A program made the position numbers and the translations under genes. Positions 11,742 through 18,499 of a DNA stretch of 64,000 bases are shown here, piece after piece. The notes under the pieces were generated by a model. It had not been told where the DNA came from. It was given only the letters and a program-made list of their open reading frames with translations, and did not search any database. Position 1 is the first letter of the stretch, and each line of letters opens with the position of its first letter. Origin of the DNA: Nocardioides sp. Kera G14 (GTDB taxonomy: Bacteria > Actinomycetota > Actinomycetes > Propionibacteriales > Nocardioidaceae); assembly GCF_020715565.1 (NCBI RefSeq), contig NZ_CP085839.1, forward strand, positions 1,612,001 to 1,676,000, given 5' to 3'.

Positions 11742-12668
11742 TTACGGCCGCGCGGAAGCCAGCGCGGTGATGAGCCGGGTGACGGAGCCGGTGAGGTTCC
11801 AGCGTTGCGCGAGCTCGACAAGCCGCTCCGGATCCGCCGGTGCGTACGGCGTCGCCAGGCCGCTCCGGTCGACGTCGACGTCCCGGGCGACGGCCACGAC
11901 CTTCGGCGCGACGGTCAGGTAGTCGGCGGCCGCGAGGATCCTCGCCCGCGGGCTCGGGCCCATCTCCGCCCGGGGATCGGCGGCGGCCGCGACGATCGCG
12001 TCGAGGTCACCGAAACGCTGGAGCAGGGTCGCGGCCGTCTTATCGCCGATGCCGGAGACACCGGGCAGGCCGTCGGAGGCGTCACCGCGAAGGGTCGCGA
12101 AGTCGGCGTACTGATGCGGCTTGACGGCGTACTTCGCCTCGACCCACGCCTCGTCGACCCGCTCGTGCTTGGAGACGCCCCGAGCGATGTAGAGCACGCG
12201 GACAGGCCCACCGGGGGCAGAGTCCGAGACGAGCTGGAAGAGGTCGCGGTCACCGGTGACGACGTCGACGGCGAGGCCGGCGTCGGTGGACAGCGTGCCG
12301 ATGATGTCGTCGGCCTCGTAGTGCGCGGCGCCACGCACCGCGATCCCGAACGCGTCGAGCACCTCGCGGATGAGCGGGACCTGGACCTGGAGCGGGTCGG
12401 GCACCTCCTCGATATCCGTCCCTGCTGGCCCCGCATCCTCGGCGACGACCCGGTGCGCCTTGTAGGACGGCAGCAGGTCCACGCGCCACTGGGGACGCCA
12501 GTCGTCGTCCCAGCAGCAGACCAGCTCGGTGGGGGAGTACTCGCCCACGAGACGGGCCATGAAGTCGAGCAGCCCGCGCACGGCGTTGACCGGCGTGCCG
12601 TCGTCGGCGAGCACCTCCGGTACGCCGAAGAACGCCCGGAAGTAGAGACTGGCCGTGTCCAGCAGCAT
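11742..12668 (-). CDS. 5'-3' exonuclease (PolA N-terminal/FEN family)
   Basis: 308 residues; stand-alone homologue of the 5' nuclease domain of DNA polymerase I. Metal-binding acidic residues appear in MLLDTASLYFRAFFG, CCWDDDWRPQWR, HYEADDIIGTL and VVTGDRDLFQLV. The helix-hairpin-helix is at GDASDGLPGVSGIGDKTAATLL. These are the hallmarks of the FEN fold that removes RNA primers or 5' flaps. ATG 12668 is used; GTG 12680 would add four residues. It is divergent from the Lnt-like gene 41 nt away. Confidence 0.92.
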   Translation of the reverse strand: MLLDTASLYFRAFFGVPEVLADDGTPVNAVRGLLDFMARLVGEYSPTELVCCWDDDWRPQWRVDLLPSYKAHRVVAEDAGPAGTDIEEVPDPLQVQVPLIREVLDAFGIAVRGAAHYEADDIIGTLSTDAGLAVDVVTGDRDLFQLVSDSAPGGPVRVLYIARGVSKHERVDEAWVEAKYAVKPHQYADFATLRGDASDGLPGVSGIGDKTAATLLQRFGDLDAIVAAAADPRAEMGPSPRARILAAADYLTVAPKVVAVARDVDVDRSGLATPYAPADPERLVELAQRWNLTGSVTRLITALASARP

Positions 12669-12709
12669 GCGCGACGTCACGTCACGATCCAACCAGTAGC
12701 GTCGGGCGC

Positions 12710-13534
12710 GTGGTAGCACTGGTCCGCCTGGCCCTGGGCGTCGGCGGGGGCCTGGCGCTCGCGCTGGCGTACCCGCCCTACGGGCAGCCGTGGGTCGCGC
12801 CGCTCGCCGTGGCGGTGTTCCTCGTGGCGGTGGCCGGTGCGCGAACACGCCCGGCGCTCGTCGTCGGGCTGCTCTTCGGCCTCGCCTTCGTCGGACTCCA
12901 CGCCGAGTGGATGCGACAGGTGAGCGACGGCGCCTGGATCGGTCTGACCGTCGCACTCGCGCTCTTCTACGCCCTCATCGGACTGGTCGCCAGTTGGCTG
13001 TGGCGGCTGCCGGTCGCGCCGTTCTGGATCGCCTGTGCATGGACCGCGATCGAAGGGCTGCGCAGCACCTGGCCGTTCGGCGGCATGCCGTGGGGTCAGC
13101 TCGCCTTCGCGGTGGTCGACACGCCCCTGATGCACTCCCTCCCGTACGTCGGCACCACCGGCGTCACGTTCGCGCTGGCGTTCGTCGGGGCGCTCCTGGC
13201 CAGGCTCGTCGTGGGTCCACACCGACTGCGGGCCGTCGAGTGGCTCGTGGTGGTGGCCGTGCTCGCTGCGATCCCCGTGGTCCGGCCATGGCACATCCCG
13301 TCGGTCAACGGCGTCAGCGGCGTGATCCGGCCCGACGGGTCGATCCAGGCCCAGGAGACCGGCTCCCGGGCGCGCGGCCTCGAGGAGGAGGTTCCGCTGG
13401 TGTCGGGGCGGACCCCGGCGGACCTCGCCGGATCGTGGCCGTGGCGGGGAACCATCCTGATCACCGTTGGTGGCGTGTTGGTCATGTCGTTGTCATCCTT
13501 GCGCCGCCGGCGCCGACGTACGGTTGAGGAATGA
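12710..13534 (+). CDS. Lnt-like apolipoprotein N-acyltransferase homologue lacking the nitrilase catalytic domain
   Basis: 274 residues against about 500 for Lnt. Residues 1-195 give the Lnt membrane region: six hydrophobic segments with the family phrases LALAYPPYG, LFGLAFVGLHAEWM, WIACAWTAIEGLR and GGMPWGQLAF. At about residue 200 (nt 13300-13325) the protein jumps to the very end of the nitrilase fold (VSGVIRPDGSIQ..., as in Lnt STSGVSAVIRPDG) and the last membrane helix. The whole centre with the Glu-Lys-Cys triad is gone, in frame. GGCGT occurs on both sides of the joint. It overlaps the next gene, Ppm synthase, by 4 nt (ATGA). In mycobacteria an Lnt domain is fused to or binds Ppm1. A scaffold role is inference; it may instead be a decaying gene. 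Confidence 0.8.
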   Translation: MVALVRLALGVGGGLALALAYPPYGQPWVAPLAVAVFLVAVAGARTRPALVVGLLFGLAFVGLHAEWMRQVSDGAWIGLTVALALFYALIGLVASWLWRLPVAPFWIACAWTAIEGLRSTWPFGGMPWGQLAFAVVDTPLMHSLPYVGTTGVTFALAFVGALLARLVVGPHRLRAVEWLVVVAVLAAIPVVRPWHIPSVNGVSGVIRPDGSIQAQETGSRARGLEEEVPLVSGRTPADLAGSWPWRGTILITVGGVLVMSLSSLRRRRRRTVEE

Positions 13535-14301
13535 GCACTTTCGACCCCGTCCTCGGACGGGCCGTCATGGTCATGCCGACCTACAACGAGGCCGACAACA
13601 TCGGATGGATCGTCGGACGGCTCCGCGCTGCCCAGCCGGGCGTCGACGTCCTGATCGTCGATGACGGTTCGCCCGACGGCACCGGCCGGATCGCGGACGA
13701 GCTGGCCGCGGCCGATGACGGGATCCATGTGTTGCACCGCACGGAGAAGGCCGGGCTGGGGGCGGCGTACCTCCACGGCTTCCGCTGGGCGCTGGACGCC
13801 GGCTACGACGTGATCGGCGAGATGGATGCCGACGGCTCGCACCAGCCCGAGGAGCTCCACCTGCTCCTCGAGGCCCTGCACGATGCCGACCTCGTGATCG
13901 GCTCGCGCTGGGTGCCCGGCGGCTCGGTGCTCAACTGGCCGCTGCGCCGTGAGGCGCTCTCCCGCGGCGGGAACGCCTATGTGCGCCTGCTCCTGGGCAT
14001 CAAGGTCCGGGACGCGACAGCCGGTTTCCGGCTCTTCCGCAGGACGACGCTCGAGAAGATCAACATCGACTCCGTGCAGTCGACAGGCTACGTCTTCCAG
14101 ACCGACATGGTCACCCGCGCCCTCAACGCGGGACTGACCGTGAGCGAGGTGCCGATCCAGTTCATCGAGCGCGTCCGCGGCCACTCGAAGATGAGCGGCG
14201 CGGTCGCCGCCGAGTCGATGCGCCGTGTGACCGCCTGGGGGATCCAGGAGCGCCGCGCGCAGCTGCGCCGGGCATGGGAACGGGCCCGCACCCCTCAGTG
14301 A
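13531..14301 (+). CDS. ppm1: Polyprenol monophosphomannose synthase (GT2 family)
   Basis: 256 residues, soluble GT-A glycosyltransferase that moves mannose from GDP-mannose to polyprenyl phosphate for lipoglycan and protein mannosylation. Motifs: MPTYNEADNI, the nucleotide-binding LIVDDGSPDGTG, metal-site EMDADGSHQPEEL, GSRWVPGG, and the family-typical FIERVRGHSKMS near the end. No membrane helices, so it would need a membrane partner; the co-translated Lnt-like protein immediately upstream is the natural anchor. An inverted repeat covers its stop codon. Confidence 0.93.
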   Translation: MSTFDPVLGRAVMVMPTYNEADNIGWIVGRLRAAQPGVDVLIVDDGSPDGTGRIADELAAADDGIHVLHRTEKAGLGAAYLHGFRWALDAGYDVIGEMDADGSHQPEELHLLLEALHDADLVIGSRWVPGGSVLNWPLRREALSRGGNAYVRLLLGIKVRDATAGFRLFRRTTLEKINIDSVQSTGYVFQTDMVTRALNAGLTVSEVPIQFIERVRGHSKMSGAVAAESMRRVTAWGIQERRAQLRRAWERARTPQ

Positions 14302-14343: not shown

Positions 14344-14736
14344 TCAGGCCGTGGTTGCCTTCTTGCGCTTCGAGGCGTTCGCCCGGTGCAGGTGCGCCGG
14401 ACCGATCTCGCCGTCGCGGAGGAGCTCAAGGCGCTCCTTGAGGATCTCCTCGAGCTCCTTCTCGGAGCGGCGCTCGAGCAGCATGTCCCAGTGTGTGCGT
14501 GCAGGCTTCTCGACCTTCTCCTCCACCGGGTTACCGGCGACGTTGAGGGCCTCCTGGCCGCAGCGCGGGCACTCCCACTGCGTGGGAATCTCCGCCTCGT
14601 CGGACATCGTGATCTCGAACTCGTGGCCCTGCGGACAGCGGTAGCCGACCTGCTGACGACCGGCGAACTCGATGCCGCGCTCGTCCTCGAAGCTCTGACC
14701 CCCCAGTCGGGCCCCTCGTAGTGTGCGCTCTGCCAT
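14344..14736 (-). CDS. rbpA: RNA polymerase-binding protein RbpA
   Basis: 130 residues. RbpA binds RNA polymerase and group 1/2 sigma factors and stabilises open complexes; it occurs only in actinobacteria. Seen here: the N-terminal MAERTLRGARLGGQSFEDERG, a zinc-ribbon-like core (YRCPQGHEF and WECPRCGQ), and the basic-linker/sigma-interaction part THWDMLLERRSEKELEEILKERL. ATG 14736 begins at the conserved MAERTLRG. A SigR/SigH-type promoter lies 27 nt upstream. The stop is followed by a second TGA 8 nt downstream (TGATCGCC-TGATCCGG). Confidence 0.97.
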   Translation of the reverse strand: MAERTLRGARLGGQSFEDERGIEFAGRQQVGYRCPQGHEFEITMSDEAEIPTQWECPRCGQEALNVAGNPVEEKVEKPARTHWDMLLERRSEKELEEILKERLELLRDGEIGPAHLHRANASKRKKATTA

Positions 14737-14814: not shown

Positions 14815-16185
14815 CTACACCACGGCGGGAGCGGTGTTCCCGGCCTCCTTGATGCCGCGCACGGGGTCGAGCCGGAGCAGGAAGATCAGCCCGAGCACGA
14901 AGAAGATCACGAGCGACACGATGGCCGGTCGGTAGGAGCCGCTCAGCTGGAACACGAGGCCGAAGAGCAGCGTGCCGAACCACGACGTGCCGCGCTCACA
15001 GGCGTTGTAGAGCGCGAAGTACTCGCCCTCGCGGCCCTTCGGGATGAAGAGGCTGAAGAACGAACGCGAGAGCGCCTGCGTGCCGCCCATGACGAGGGCG
15101 ATCGCGACGCCGATCGCGAGGAAGGGGACGATCTGCTTGTTGGGCAGGAACATCGCCGCGAGGACGATGACCATCCAGGCGACCGTGCCCCACACCAGGC
15201 ACTTGTAGGCACCATGGGTGCGTGCGATGCGGGCGAAGAGCAGCGCGCCGCCGAAGGCGACGAACTGGATCAGCAGGATCGCGGCGATGAGCACCGACTG
15301 GCCGAAGTGGAGTTGCTTGCTGCCGTAGATCGACGCGCTGTAGATGACGGTCTGGATGCCGTCGTTGTAGAAGAGATAGGCGAGCAGGAACGTCAACGTC
15401 ATCGGGTAGTTGCGCAGGTCCTTGAGCGTCGCCCAGAGCTGGCCGAAGCTGCGCCGCATCAGGCCGCCGGTCTCCGGCACCACCGACGTCGCGGGGTGGT
15501 TGCGCAGCCGGGTCAGGGGGATGAGCGTGAACGCCGCCCACCAGACCGCCGCGCTGAGCAGCGAGATCCGCACGGCCATCTCCTTGCCGAGCCCGAAGGT
15601 GTCGTGCCCCTGCACCAGGACGAGGTTGACCACGAGCAGGAGTCCGCCACCGAGGTAGCCCCAGGCCCAGCCGCGGGCGGAGACGGCGTCACGCTCCCAC
15701 TCCTCGGAGATGTCGACCATGATCGCGTAGTAGCTCACGAGCGAGCAGCCGCCGAGGACACTCGCGATCACGACGGAGACCGCGCCGAGCTGCCAGTGGT
15801 CCCCGTTGAGGAAGAAGAGCAGGGCCGCGAAGAAGGAGCCCGCGAAGGCGAACCACGCCATGTGCCACTTCTTGCGGGCGCTGCGGTCCACGAGCGCGCC
15901 CACGATCGGCAGGATGAAGGCCGAGAGGATCGTCGCGAAGGAGGTCAGGTACGACGGCAGCGACCCGGCCGCGAGGTGCAGGCCGAGGACGTCGACCGCC
16001 TTCTTGCAGGTGTCGTCGGCGTCGTCACCACAACCGGCCGCCCGGCCGGCGACGGTGATCATCAGCGGTCCGAAGAGGACCGTGAGCACGGTCGTGTAGA
16101 ACGCCGAGTTCGCCCAGTCGTACCAGTTCCAGGCCTTCTGCTCGGCCCGTCGGCGTACCGGCGCCAGGTCCGCGATCGTGCTCAT
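14815..16185 (-). CDS. MFS transporter of the Atg22/UMF1 family
   Basis: 456 residues with about 12 hydrophobic segments. The N-terminal KAWNWYDWANSAFYTTVLTVLFGP (conserved WYDWANSAF) and the C-terminal GGTQALSRSFFSLFIPKGREGEYFALY block identify the Atg22-like family, sometimes annotated as amino-acid effluxers; the bacterial substrate is not established. ATG 16185 overlaps the glycerophosphodiesterase stop by 4 nt (ATGA), so the two are probably co-translated and may act on a common phospholipid-turnover product. That link is inference. Confidence 0.88.
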   Translation of the reverse strand: MSTIADLAPVRRRAEQKAWNWYDWANSAFYTTVLTVLFGPLMITVAGRAAGCGDDADDTCKKAVDVLGLHLAAGSLPSYLTSFATILSAFILPIVGALVDRSARKKWHMAWFAFAGSFFAALLFFLNGDHWQLGAVSVVIASVLGGCSLVSYYAIMVDISEEWERDAVSARGWAWGYLGGGLLLVVNLVLVQGHDTFGLGKEMAVRISLLSAAVWWAAFTLIPLTRLRNHPATSVVPETGGLMRRSFGQLWATLKDLRNYPMTLTFLLAYLFYNDGIQTVIYSASIYGSKQLHFGQSVLIAAILLIQFVAFGGALLFARIARTHGAYKCLVWGTVAWMVIVLAAMFLPNKQIVPFLAIGVAIALVMGGTQALSRSFFSLFIPKGREGEYFALYNACERGTSWFGTLLFGLVFQLSGSYRPAIVSLVIFFVLGLIFLLRLDPVRGIKEAGNTAPAVV

Positions 16186-16943
16186 GAGCCCTCCCAGTCT
16201 CGATGCCACTCGCCGCGCGAGATCAGCACATCCCGAAGGATGTCGGTCCGATCGGTGAAGATGCCGTCGACACCCCGGTCGAGCAGCAGGTTGATCTCGT
16301 CGGCGTCGTCGATGGTCCACGCGTGCACCTCGAGGCCGTTGGCATGCGCGCGGCGGACCACACCGCTGCTGCAGATGGTGACGCCCTTGCGGCGGTGGGG
16401 GATCTGCAGCACGCTCGCACCCAGCCGGCGCAGCGGGAAGGCCAGGGGAGAGGCGAGGTAGGCCGCCACCTCACCCGGGGTGGCACTCGTCGCCACGCGG
16501 CCCTCGGTGATCCTGCGGAAGCGGGCCATCTCCGCGGTGGAGAAGGAGCCGATGATGACGCGCTTCTCCAGGTCCCGCTCGCGCAGGAACGTCGCGAGGG
16601 CCTCCGCGGTGCCCGGGGCCTTGAGGTCGATGTTCATGCCGACGTACGCCGGCAGCGACTCGACCAGCTCCTCGAGGGTCGGGATCGGCTCGCTGCCGCC
16701 GATCCGGGCGGTCGCGATCTCGGCATAGGGCAGGTCGGAGATCGCGCCGGTGCGGTCGGTCACCCGGTCGAGGACGGCGTCGTGGAACGCCACGAGGACG
16801 CCGTCATGGGTCAGGTGCACGTCGGTCTCGATGTCGCGGTAGCCGAGCGCCACCGCGTGCTGGAAGGCGCGCAGCGTGTTCTCGTGCCCGAGCAGGTCGG
16901 GGTGCATCGCCCCGCCGCGGTGGGCGAAGGCGCGGATCGGCAT
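16182..16943 (-). CDS. Glycerophosphodiester phosphodiesterase
   Basis: 253 residues, GDPD TIM-barrel. Catalytic and metal residues are seen in AFAHRGG (catalytic His), ENTLRAFQHAVALG, DIETDVHLTHDGVLVAFHD (Glu, Asp and second His) and the C-terminal VHAWTIDDADEINLLLDRG with VDGIFTDRTD. No signal peptide, so cytosolic hydrolysis of glycerophosphodiesters to glycerol-3-phosphate plus alcohol. Follows the HTH-MurA gene by 12 nt and overlaps the MFS gene: three-gene leftward operon. Confidence 0.93.
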   Translation of the reverse strand: MPIRAFAHRGGAMHPDLLGHENTLRAFQHAVALGYRDIETDVHLTHDGVLVAFHDAVLDRVTDRTGAISDLPYAEIATARIGGSEPIPTLEELVESLPAYVGMNIDLKAPGTAEALATFLRERDLEKRVIIGSFSTAEMARFRRITEGRVATSATPGEVAAYLASPLAFPLRRLGASVLQIPHRRKGVTICSSGVVRRAHANGLEVHAWTIDDADEINLLLDRGVDGIFTDRTDILRDVLISRGEWHRDWEGS

Positions 16944-16955
16944 TGGCCGCGCGGC

Positions 16956-18488
16956 TCAGTTGGAGATGTCGCGGAACGGCTCGATCATCGCGCCGAGCTC
17001 GTTGAGCCGCTCGGCGAGATCCTCATAACCGCGCGCGATCACATACGTGCCGCGCAGGACGCTCGTGCCCTTGGCGGCCAGCATCGCGAGCAGGATCACG
17101 ACCGCCGGGCGCAGCGCCGGCGGGCAGACGATCTCGGCACCGCTGAAGTGCGTCGGGCCCGCGACCATGACGCGGTGCGGGTCGAGGAGCTTGACGTTGC
17201 CCCCGAGCTTGCTGAGCTCGGTGAGGTAGATCGCGCGGTTCTCGTAGACCCAGTCGTGCAGGAGGGTCTGGCCGGTCGCGACGGCCGCGATCACCGCGAA
17301 GAACGGCAGGTTGTCGATGTTGAGGCCGGGGAAGGGCATCGGGTGGATCTTGTCGTGCGGCGCGTGCAGCACCGAGTGACGAGTCGTGATGTCGACAAGT
17401 CGGGTCTGGCCGTTGGAGGCGACGTACTCCTCGGAGCGCTCGTAGCGAAAACCCATCTCCTCCAGCGTCGCGAGCTCGATCTCCAGGAACTCGATCGGCA
17501 CGCGGCGGATGGTGATCTCGGAGTCGGTCACGATCGCGGCGGCCAGGAGGCTCATCGCCTCGATCGGGTCCTCGGACGGGGCATAGTCGACGTCCACGTC
17601 GATGTCCTCGACGCCCGTGACGGTGAGGGTCGTCGTACCGATGCCGTCGACCTGCACGCCGAGGCGCTGCAGGTAGAAGCACAGATCCTGGACCATGTAG
17701 TTGGAGCTGGCGTTGCGGATGATCGTGGTGCCGGGGTGGAGGGCGGCGGCCATGAGGGCGTTCTCGGTGACGGTGTCGCCCCGCTCGGTGAGCACGATCG
17801 GGCGACCGGGGACGATCTTCCGGTCGACGCTGGCGTGGTACGCACCTTCGTTGGCCTTGACCTCCAGGCCGAAGGAGCGCAGCGCGGTCATGTGCGGCTC
17901 GACGGTCCGCTCGCCGAGGTTGCAGCCGCCGGCATAGGGCAGGTCGAAGTTCTCGGCGCGGTGGAGCAGCGGTCCGAGGAACATGATGACCGAGCGGGTG
18001 CGGCGGGCCGCCTCCTCGTCCACGTTGTCGAGCTTGAGCTCGCGCGGCGGGACGATCTCGAGGTCGTTGTCCTCGTTGAGCCAGCGCGTCTGGACGCCGA
18101 GGCTGTTGAGCACCTCGATCAGGCGGTTGACCTCCTCGATGCGCGCCACACGGCGCAGCACGGTGCGGCCCTTGTTGAGCAGGCTCGCGCAGAGCAGCGC
18201 GACGCCGGCGTTCTTCGAGGTCTTCACATCGATGCTGCCCGACAGCGTCGTCGGGCCCGTGATCCGGAGGTGGACGGGGCCTGCCGCCAGCGACACGATC
18301 TCGGAGTCGACCGCCGCGCCGATGCGGGCGATCATCTCGAGGGTGAGGTTCTGCTGACCCTTCTCGATCCGGTTGATGGCACTCTGGGAAGTGCCCAGGC
18401 GCTCGGCCAACTGGGCCTGCGTCAGGCCCCGGTGGGTGCGCGCGTCACGGATCAGGTTGCCGATCCGGTCCTTGTAGCCATCGCTCAT
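16956..18488 (-). CDS. XRE helix-turn-helix fused to a MurA-type UDP-GlcNAc enolpyruvyl transferase
   Basis: 510 residues: an XRE DNA-binding domain (about 4-65, LTQAQLAERLGTSQSAINRIEKG) joined to a complete enolpyruvyl-transferase fold (about 75-505). MurA residues are kept: Lys-Asn (SKNAGVALL, K92/N93) and the phosphoenolpyruvate-binding Cys189 in AGGCNLGERTVEPH. MurA makes the first committed precursor of peptidoglycan. The fusion suggests either an enzyme that senses its substrate and binds DNA, or a regulator built from MurA. ATG 18488 used; GTG 18497 would add three residues. A CTCA-N4-TGAG palindrome in the 38-nt divergent gap to the alcohol dehydrogenase is its likely site. Such fusions are annotated in other actinobacteria, but I know of no defined role. 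Confidence 0.88.
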   Translation of the reverse strand: MSDGYKDRIGNLIRDARTHRGLTQAQLAERLGTSQSAINRIEKGQQNLTLEMIARIGAAVDSEIVSLAAGPVHLRITGPTTLSGSIDVKTSKNAGVALLCASLLNKGRTVLRRVARIEEVNRLIEVLNSLGVQTRWLNEDNDLEIVPPRELKLDNVDEEAARRTRSVIMFLGPLLHRAENFDLPYAGGCNLGERTVEPHMTALRSFGLEVKANEGAYHASVDRKIVPGRPIVLTERGDTVTENALMAAALHPGTTIIRNASSNYMVQDLCFYLQRLGVQVDGIGTTTLTVTGVEDIDVDVDYAPSEDPIEAMSLLAAAIVTDSEITIRRVPIEFLEIELATLEEMGFRYERSEEYVASNGQTRLVDITTRHSVLHAPHDKIHPMPFPGLNIDNLPFFAVIAAVATGQTLLHDWVYENRAIYLTELSKLGGNVKLLDPHRVMVAGPTHFSGAEIVCPPALRPAVVILLAMLAAKGTSVLRGTYVIARGYEDLAERLNELGAMIEPFRDISN

Positions 18489-18499
18489 GCGATCCACGG

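Follow-up and report, generated by a model that had tools for sequence, protein, structure and literature searches.

The strain has probably lost the catalytic function of Lnt through an in-frame deletion, in a family in which the loss of Lnt is tolerated, and it has been left with a membrane remnant of uncertain use; we give this reading a probability of about 80%. One internal deletion that preserved the frame would have removed the catalytic domain of the only detectable Lnt, and this would have been tolerated because Lnt would be dispensable here, the gene being absent outright from several relatives. The loss would be domain-wise, with an Lnt-like membrane domain and the last TM helix apparently still encoded and the stop codon still overlapping the ppm start, and the strain would then make diacylated lipoproteins.

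The Lnt-like ORF occupies positions 12710-13534 (+) of the window (the whole stretch of DNA analysed, 64,000 nucleotides) and encodes 274 aa. Its membrane part, residues 1-194 (12710..13291, +), is retained: the Pfam analysis placed LNT_N (PF20154) at residues 14-162 with an E-value of 1e-29 and 104 bits, above the cut-off of 27.1 bits, and the profile was matched at positions 2-159 of 159. The extracytoplasmic CN_hydrolase (nitrilase) domain PF00795 was absent from the protein at E<=1 in Pfam, and the genome search found none at the locus. Against the lnt model TIGR00546, the protein matched only profile positions 1-142 of 395 with 40.3 bits, below the cut-off of 132.9, compared with 218.5 bits for the full-length Lnt of the relative L119. 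The motifs WPE[NST] and YxK (around Glu and Lys) were present in 40 of the 41 aligned sequences and [IVL]C[FYW][DE] (around Cys) in 39, while none of these patterns, which were derived from the alignment of relatives, occurs in the 274-aa protein; we take Glu-Lys-Cys to be the catalytic triad of Lnt. The original prediction of an Lnt-like protein without its catalytic domain is thus borne out by the complete LNT_N, the absent CN_hydrolase, the three missing motifs and the TIGR00546 score below the cut-off.

The alignment with relatives (55 loci, with L039 and L059 from one and the same contig) and with L119, together with motif counts, placed the deletion joint at codons 195-196 (13292..13297, +). 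Residues 1-194 and the last approximately 79 residues are colinear with the 526-aa frame of L119, the nearest relative, in which residues ~201-427 (227 aa, ~680 nt) have no counterpart in the strain, and the gap is in frame. Colinearity ends at ...VRPW (residue 194) and is restored with (I)PSVNGVSGVIRPDG, the counterpart of L119 from residue 428 onwards. The retained C-terminal stub (13298..13531, +), recognised by BLASTP, consists of the motif NGVSGVIRPDG, a low-confidence linker, the last predicted TM helix and an Arg-rich tail, and aligns with the C-terminus of L119 at an E-value of 2e-12 without gaps across 67 columns. The in-frame deletion of the catalytic domain is therefore confirmed as present in the assembly of this one genome. 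About 230 residues had been predicted to be missing without a frameshift, which holds; the position, given as about codon 200, is corrected to 194-196.

The two GGCGT copies that had been proposed to flank the joint, and hence to have mediated a deletion by short homology, lie at 13310 and 13319 (13310..13323, +), both on its 3' side. Both encode NG-V-SG-V within the conserved NGxSG motif, which is found in 39 of 40 relatives and is retained in the 274-aa protein, and GGCGT occurs 214 times on the + strand of the window, seven of them within the truncated lnt. Since the two copies belong to conserved family sequence downstream of the joint, deletion by short homology was rejected.

The phylogenetic analysis was based on five flanking proteins and covered 53 of 61 taxa (60 loci and the strain); an MFS gene and marker proteins with an abnormal length were excluded, and L123 entered the analysis with no ppm. 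L136 and L116 were left out, as were L103, L115, L117, L121, L122 and L126, for each of which ppm, rbpA or any third marker was missing from the stretch fetched. The strain is sister to L119 (genome G297) and L127 (G319) with an ultrafast bootstrap value of 98, and the sister lnt frames are full length, at 526 aa and 520 aa, respectively. Open lnt frames of 501-534 aa were found in 39 of the 40 fetched relatives, these sisters included, so that the locus is full length in close relatives, a situation that the original prediction had named, together with other decay in the gene, as speaking against it; the signs of such decay are ambiguous. The fortieth relative, L136, has a frame of 459 aa in which the NG and Cys motifs are missing, and this frame seems to be disturbed.

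A clean nitrilase-less Lnt appears to be rare. The protein is matched in 204 of 215 same-genus genomes, the strain included; best matches were used for 148 of them, the remaining 56 were re-searched with PF20154, and the nitrilase domain was seen directly in aligned proteins and judged elsewhere from the length of the open frame. Among the 148, the sole open frame shorter than 490 aa is the gene described here (314, stop to stop). Among the 56, short frames occur in G154 (251), G175 (322 and 229), G273 (422) and G296 (177). The frames of G154 and of two of the three G175 copies were rejected as membrane-only Lnts, the nitrilase DNA being kept in another frame. G175 carries three lnt-like genes (L169, L170 and L171), two of them frame-broken, and the copy adjoining ppm is intact. 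The matches in G296, G273, G345, G055 and G047 run into contig ends, which puts their nitrilase part beyond judgement. One in-frame TAG was found in a second lnt copy of G020.

In a class-wide sample of 118 genomes, open frames below 440 aa were restricted to this gene and G345 (302, contig end). Four further short proteins, 31-38% identical and with LNT_N as the sole entry in their precomputed Pfam list, came from the best 7999 candidates of suitable length among 5.8 billion proteins; they were rejected as membrane-only Lnts, because their ends, judged by eye, make them look like fragments or frame-disturbed products. The strain is thus the only demonstrated nitrilase deletion among the 204 same-genus genomes with a match, two others ending at contig ends, and it is on this one case in the material that the rarity rests. 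Among the open-licence PubMed Central papers listed, titles and opening lines of abstracts showed none that deals with a nitrilase-less Lnt or with Lnt in Nocardioides. The component parts are already known; the domain-wise loss of Lnt appears to be a new variation on them.

The genome comprises 3.47 Mb in one contig with a completeness of 99.49, and the profile search revealed no second LNT_N in it, the truncated gene being the single match. A second full-length lnt, which the original prediction had suggested looking for, was likewise not found. Five CN_hydrolase matches are present, all away from the lnt locus; in NCBIfam, the matched stretches alone scored best as soluble amidases or as NAD synthase, none of them reaching the cut-offs of those models, since only stretches were scored. 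Two of these stretches touch the lnt model with 63 and 65 bits against the cut-off of 132.9. With a single LNT_N and no CN_hydrolase stretch passing the lnt cut-off, the possibility of a further lnt, or of a nitrilase domain transposed elsewhere in this genome, was rejected. Lgt, LspA and a PMT_4TMC protein are encoded in the genome, so lipoproteins and mannosyl transfer are expected. Because the catalytic domain of the only detectable Lnt is deleted, the strain most likely makes diacylated rather than N-acylated lipoproteins; judged from gene content, lipoprotein N-acylation has most likely been lost.

Some relatives have no Lnt at all. No LNT_N was found in 11 of the 215 same-genus genomes, ten of which have a completeness of 97% or more. 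The domain was also missing from 9 of the 10 genomes tested in genus g5 and from one genome of a third genus, G009 (82% complete). Lnt-less genomes that could be placed on the tree occupy three or more positions (the G205 clade, G162 and genus g5) with Lnt-bearing taxa between them; some deeper nodes are weak, with a value of 64 for the placing of the G205 clade. In G162, the exonuclease gene and ppm are directly adjacent and lnt is gone. All Lnt-less genomes tested from the same genus, g5 and G009 contain a relative of ppm. The identity is 71-81% for the ten near-complete genomes of the same genus, 64-73% for eight of the nine Lnt-less g5 genomes (the G060 copy with one internal stop) and 50% for the g5 genome G078; in G009 the match is only weak. 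PMT and Lgt were present in all three Lnt-less genomes tested for them, and LspA in all five. The retention of ppm in these relatives means that its persistence does not require Lnt. The family tolerates the loss of Lnt. Like the strain, these relatives are expected to have no Lnt activity and have a ppm relative; unlike the strain, which keeps the membrane part, they have no LNT_N in their genomes.

The gene directly downstream of the remnant (13531-14301, +) encodes a GT2 enzyme of the polyprenol-phosphate-mannose synthase (Ppm) type of 256 aa, identified by its PF00535 match in Pfam and by a PDB match to the dolichol monophosphate mannose synthase 5mlz (E 3.5e-31); no NCBIfam equivalog exceeded its cut-off. 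The hydropathy analysis found no TM segment in it, and a clear TM segment was absent from Ppm in all 14 sequences examined in this way, 11 of them from Lnt-less genomes. Weak hydropathic stretches were seen in 6 of these 11, the highest (1.51, in L114) near the level of the Lnt helices. The Ppm proteins of L099, L100, L106 and L107, which belong to the Lnt-less clade of the same genus, are extended at the C-terminus by a longer tail rich in Leu and Arg, which may be an amphipathic helix that binds the membrane.

The predicted coupling of the two genes by ATGA is present as a 4-base stretch shared by the lnt stop codon and the start codon of ppm at 13531..13534 (+), as given by the ORF coordinates. 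Both sisters likewise have a start codon at -4, as do 21 of the 39 relatives with ppm at the locus, so the overlap is probably older than the deletion and is, by itself, no proof of selection on the remnant. By synteny, the pair is flanked upstream by a divergent gene at 11742..12680 (-), which we take to be 5'-3' exonuclease-like, and downstream by a presumably rbpA-like gene at 14344..14733 (-). The order exonuclease(-) lnt(+) ppm(+) rbpA(-) gdpd(-) murA(-) is kept wholly or partly around the 40 Lnt-bearing loci fetched; the exonuclease neighbour was found in part of the relatives, and in the remainder the flank was too short or the neighbour different.

Three further observations concern this neighbourhood. 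L123 (G298) has a full-length lnt at the locus with no ppm beside it, and G298 carries two ppm relatives elsewhere (G298:C1:227972-228712 and 312452-313189, 71 and 73% identical). The MFS-type gene next to rbpA (window 14815-16190, -) occurs in two divergent forms, also in L119, L127, L123 and others; L119 and L127 are 60% identical in this gene and the window and L119 83%, a distribution that contradicts the other flanking genes and suggests xenologous replacement. The product of window 16956-18497 (-), well conserved in synteny, has what we take to be an XRE-like helix-turn-helix segment at the N-terminus of a presumably MurA-like protein.

The AlphaFold model of the remnant has a mean pLDDT of 82.7. 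Residues 1-190 are mostly high (blocks of ten largely 85-98, with 68 at residues 121-130), residues 220-247 are low, and a helix was modelled at residues 245-273; the other rows of the input alignment covered N-terminal parts only, so the stub was modelled without related rows. All 24 PDB matches obtained with Foldseek at E<=1e-3 are Lnt, and the remnant is predicted to have an Lnt-like membrane fold closed by the last TM helix. The protein thus resembles E. coli Lnt and the TIGR00546 family in its whole N-terminal membrane domain, its last TM helix and, by Foldseek, the Lnt fold, but differs from them in lacking the nitrilase domain and all three catalytic motifs.

The remnant keeps 45 of the 52 membrane-part positions that are conserved in at least 90% of relatives, and its seven changes are the second highest number among 41 sequences. 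Evolutionary rates were obtained with the topology fixed to the five-protein tree, and 33 of 37 tips were ranked, marker branches <=0.04 being dropped. The rate of the membrane part was 1.93 times that of the markers (rank 6 of 33); relative to the median of the other tips it was 0.89-2.05 (95%, 100 bootstraps), and on this comparison the membrane part appears not clearly accelerated. The C-terminal stub evolved at 4.00 times the markers (rank 2 of 33; 1.53-4.54 times the others' median); as three full-length relatives have rates close to it (4.34, 3.73 and 3.50), its speed lies within the full-length range. The stub-to-membrane rate ratio of the gene, 2.07, is the sixth of 33. Pairwise dN relative to ppm was 2.4-2.9 in the two pairs that include the strain versus 0.8-1.8 in eight control pairs, a comparison of 10 of 13 pairs in which the three with L123 were left out (ppm missing at the locus) and dS is probably saturated. 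The truncated gene also keeps coding-type GC by codon position. Taken as sequence signals, these values give no appearance of a pseudogene-like collapse, and some relaxation of the remnant is possible.

As to what the remnant now is, the alternative that holds up best is a recent deletion that left a functionless protein, intact merely for lack of time; we regard this as a tentative possibility, somewhat below even odds. It agrees with the strain being the only demonstrated case among the 204 same-genus genomes with a match, with the tolerance of Lnt loss in the family and with the raised dN ratio to ppm. The open frame says little in this respect, since an overlapping ORF in the wrong frame reaches 245 aa and a long open frame is therefore weak evidence here. 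The kept conserved positions and the coding-type GC would seem to speak for continued use, but a young relic would show both too, and the fast stub hints at some age, yet stays inside the full-length range.

A second alternative holds that the remnant is a pseudoenzyme, outliving its catalytic domain and kept by selection because it docks the soluble Ppm, and perhaps the protein mannosyltransferase, at the membrane; we consider this unlikely, though of some weight. In arrangement, the locus is like the ppm operon of mycobacteria and corynebacteria (Ppm2/Lnt and Ppm1) and the fused Ppm1 D1-D2 of M. tuberculosis, with lnt directly upstream of the Ppm synthase and overlapping frames; it is unlike them in that Lnt acylates there, according to PMC3460810, while the strain has the membrane part and a stub only. 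The same paper describes that, in C. glutamicum without Lnt, domain D1 of M. tuberculosis restored glycosylation and not acylation, which parts the support of glycosylation from acylation. As one possible explanation of the effect of D1, its authors suggest that Ppm1 is anchored; they also note a polar effect on ppm1 and cite a two-hybrid interaction in M. smegmatis.

A docking role would further suit a Ppm without a hydropathic TM segment next to a PMT_4TMC gene in the genome, a membrane part of predicted Lnt-like fold that is not clearly accelerated, and a remnant that adjoins and overlaps ppm through ATGA. It is opposed by the ppm relatives that exist without any Lnt in 10 near-complete same-genus genomes and in 9 of the 10 tested g5 genomes, by the PMT found in every one of the Lnt-less genomes tested for it, and by the dN comparison and conserved-site count, which suggest some relaxation. 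Moreover, according to PMC3485146, M. smegmatis can do without its Lnt homologue but not without Ppm1, and Ppm1 alone is reported to suffice for activity. The fuller form of the proposal, in which a membrane-only Lnt has shed acyltransferase catalysis to become a dedicated scaffold coupling Ppm to the membrane, possibly with the protein mannosyltransferase, we judge to be slightly less likely still.

It is more doubtful that the remnant matters as a translated leader, its protein irrelevant and the ribosomes that end at ATGA feeding the translation of ppm. Selection of this kind would permit an in-frame deletion, and the ATGA overlap is kept and probably old; but it predicts unconstrained amino acids in the membrane part, most of whose conserved positions are kept, and ppm is found without lnt in other genomes. 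Least probable is an assembly artefact or a deletion acquired in culture, with a full-length lnt in the wild strain: the deletion is known from one genome assembly and the sisters are full length, but the genome is a single contig, no GGCGT repeat flanks the joint and the join is exactly in frame. The loss of Lnt catalysis by an in-frame deletion, leaving a membrane remnant of uncertain use, remains the preferred reading.

If the remnant did serve as a scaffold for Ppm, the non-catalytic role proposed for the corynebacterial Ppm2/Lnt would be selectable on its own. Whether catalysis or membrane partnering of the actinobacterial Lnt matters in lipoprotein mannosylation is a question posed in PMC3460810. 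The strain provides a natural separation of the membrane and catalytic parts of Lnt, and among its relatives there are genomes that naturally lack Lnt but retain ppm. That several lineages of the Nocardioidaceae do without Lnt also suggests that triacylated lipoproteins are dispensable there.
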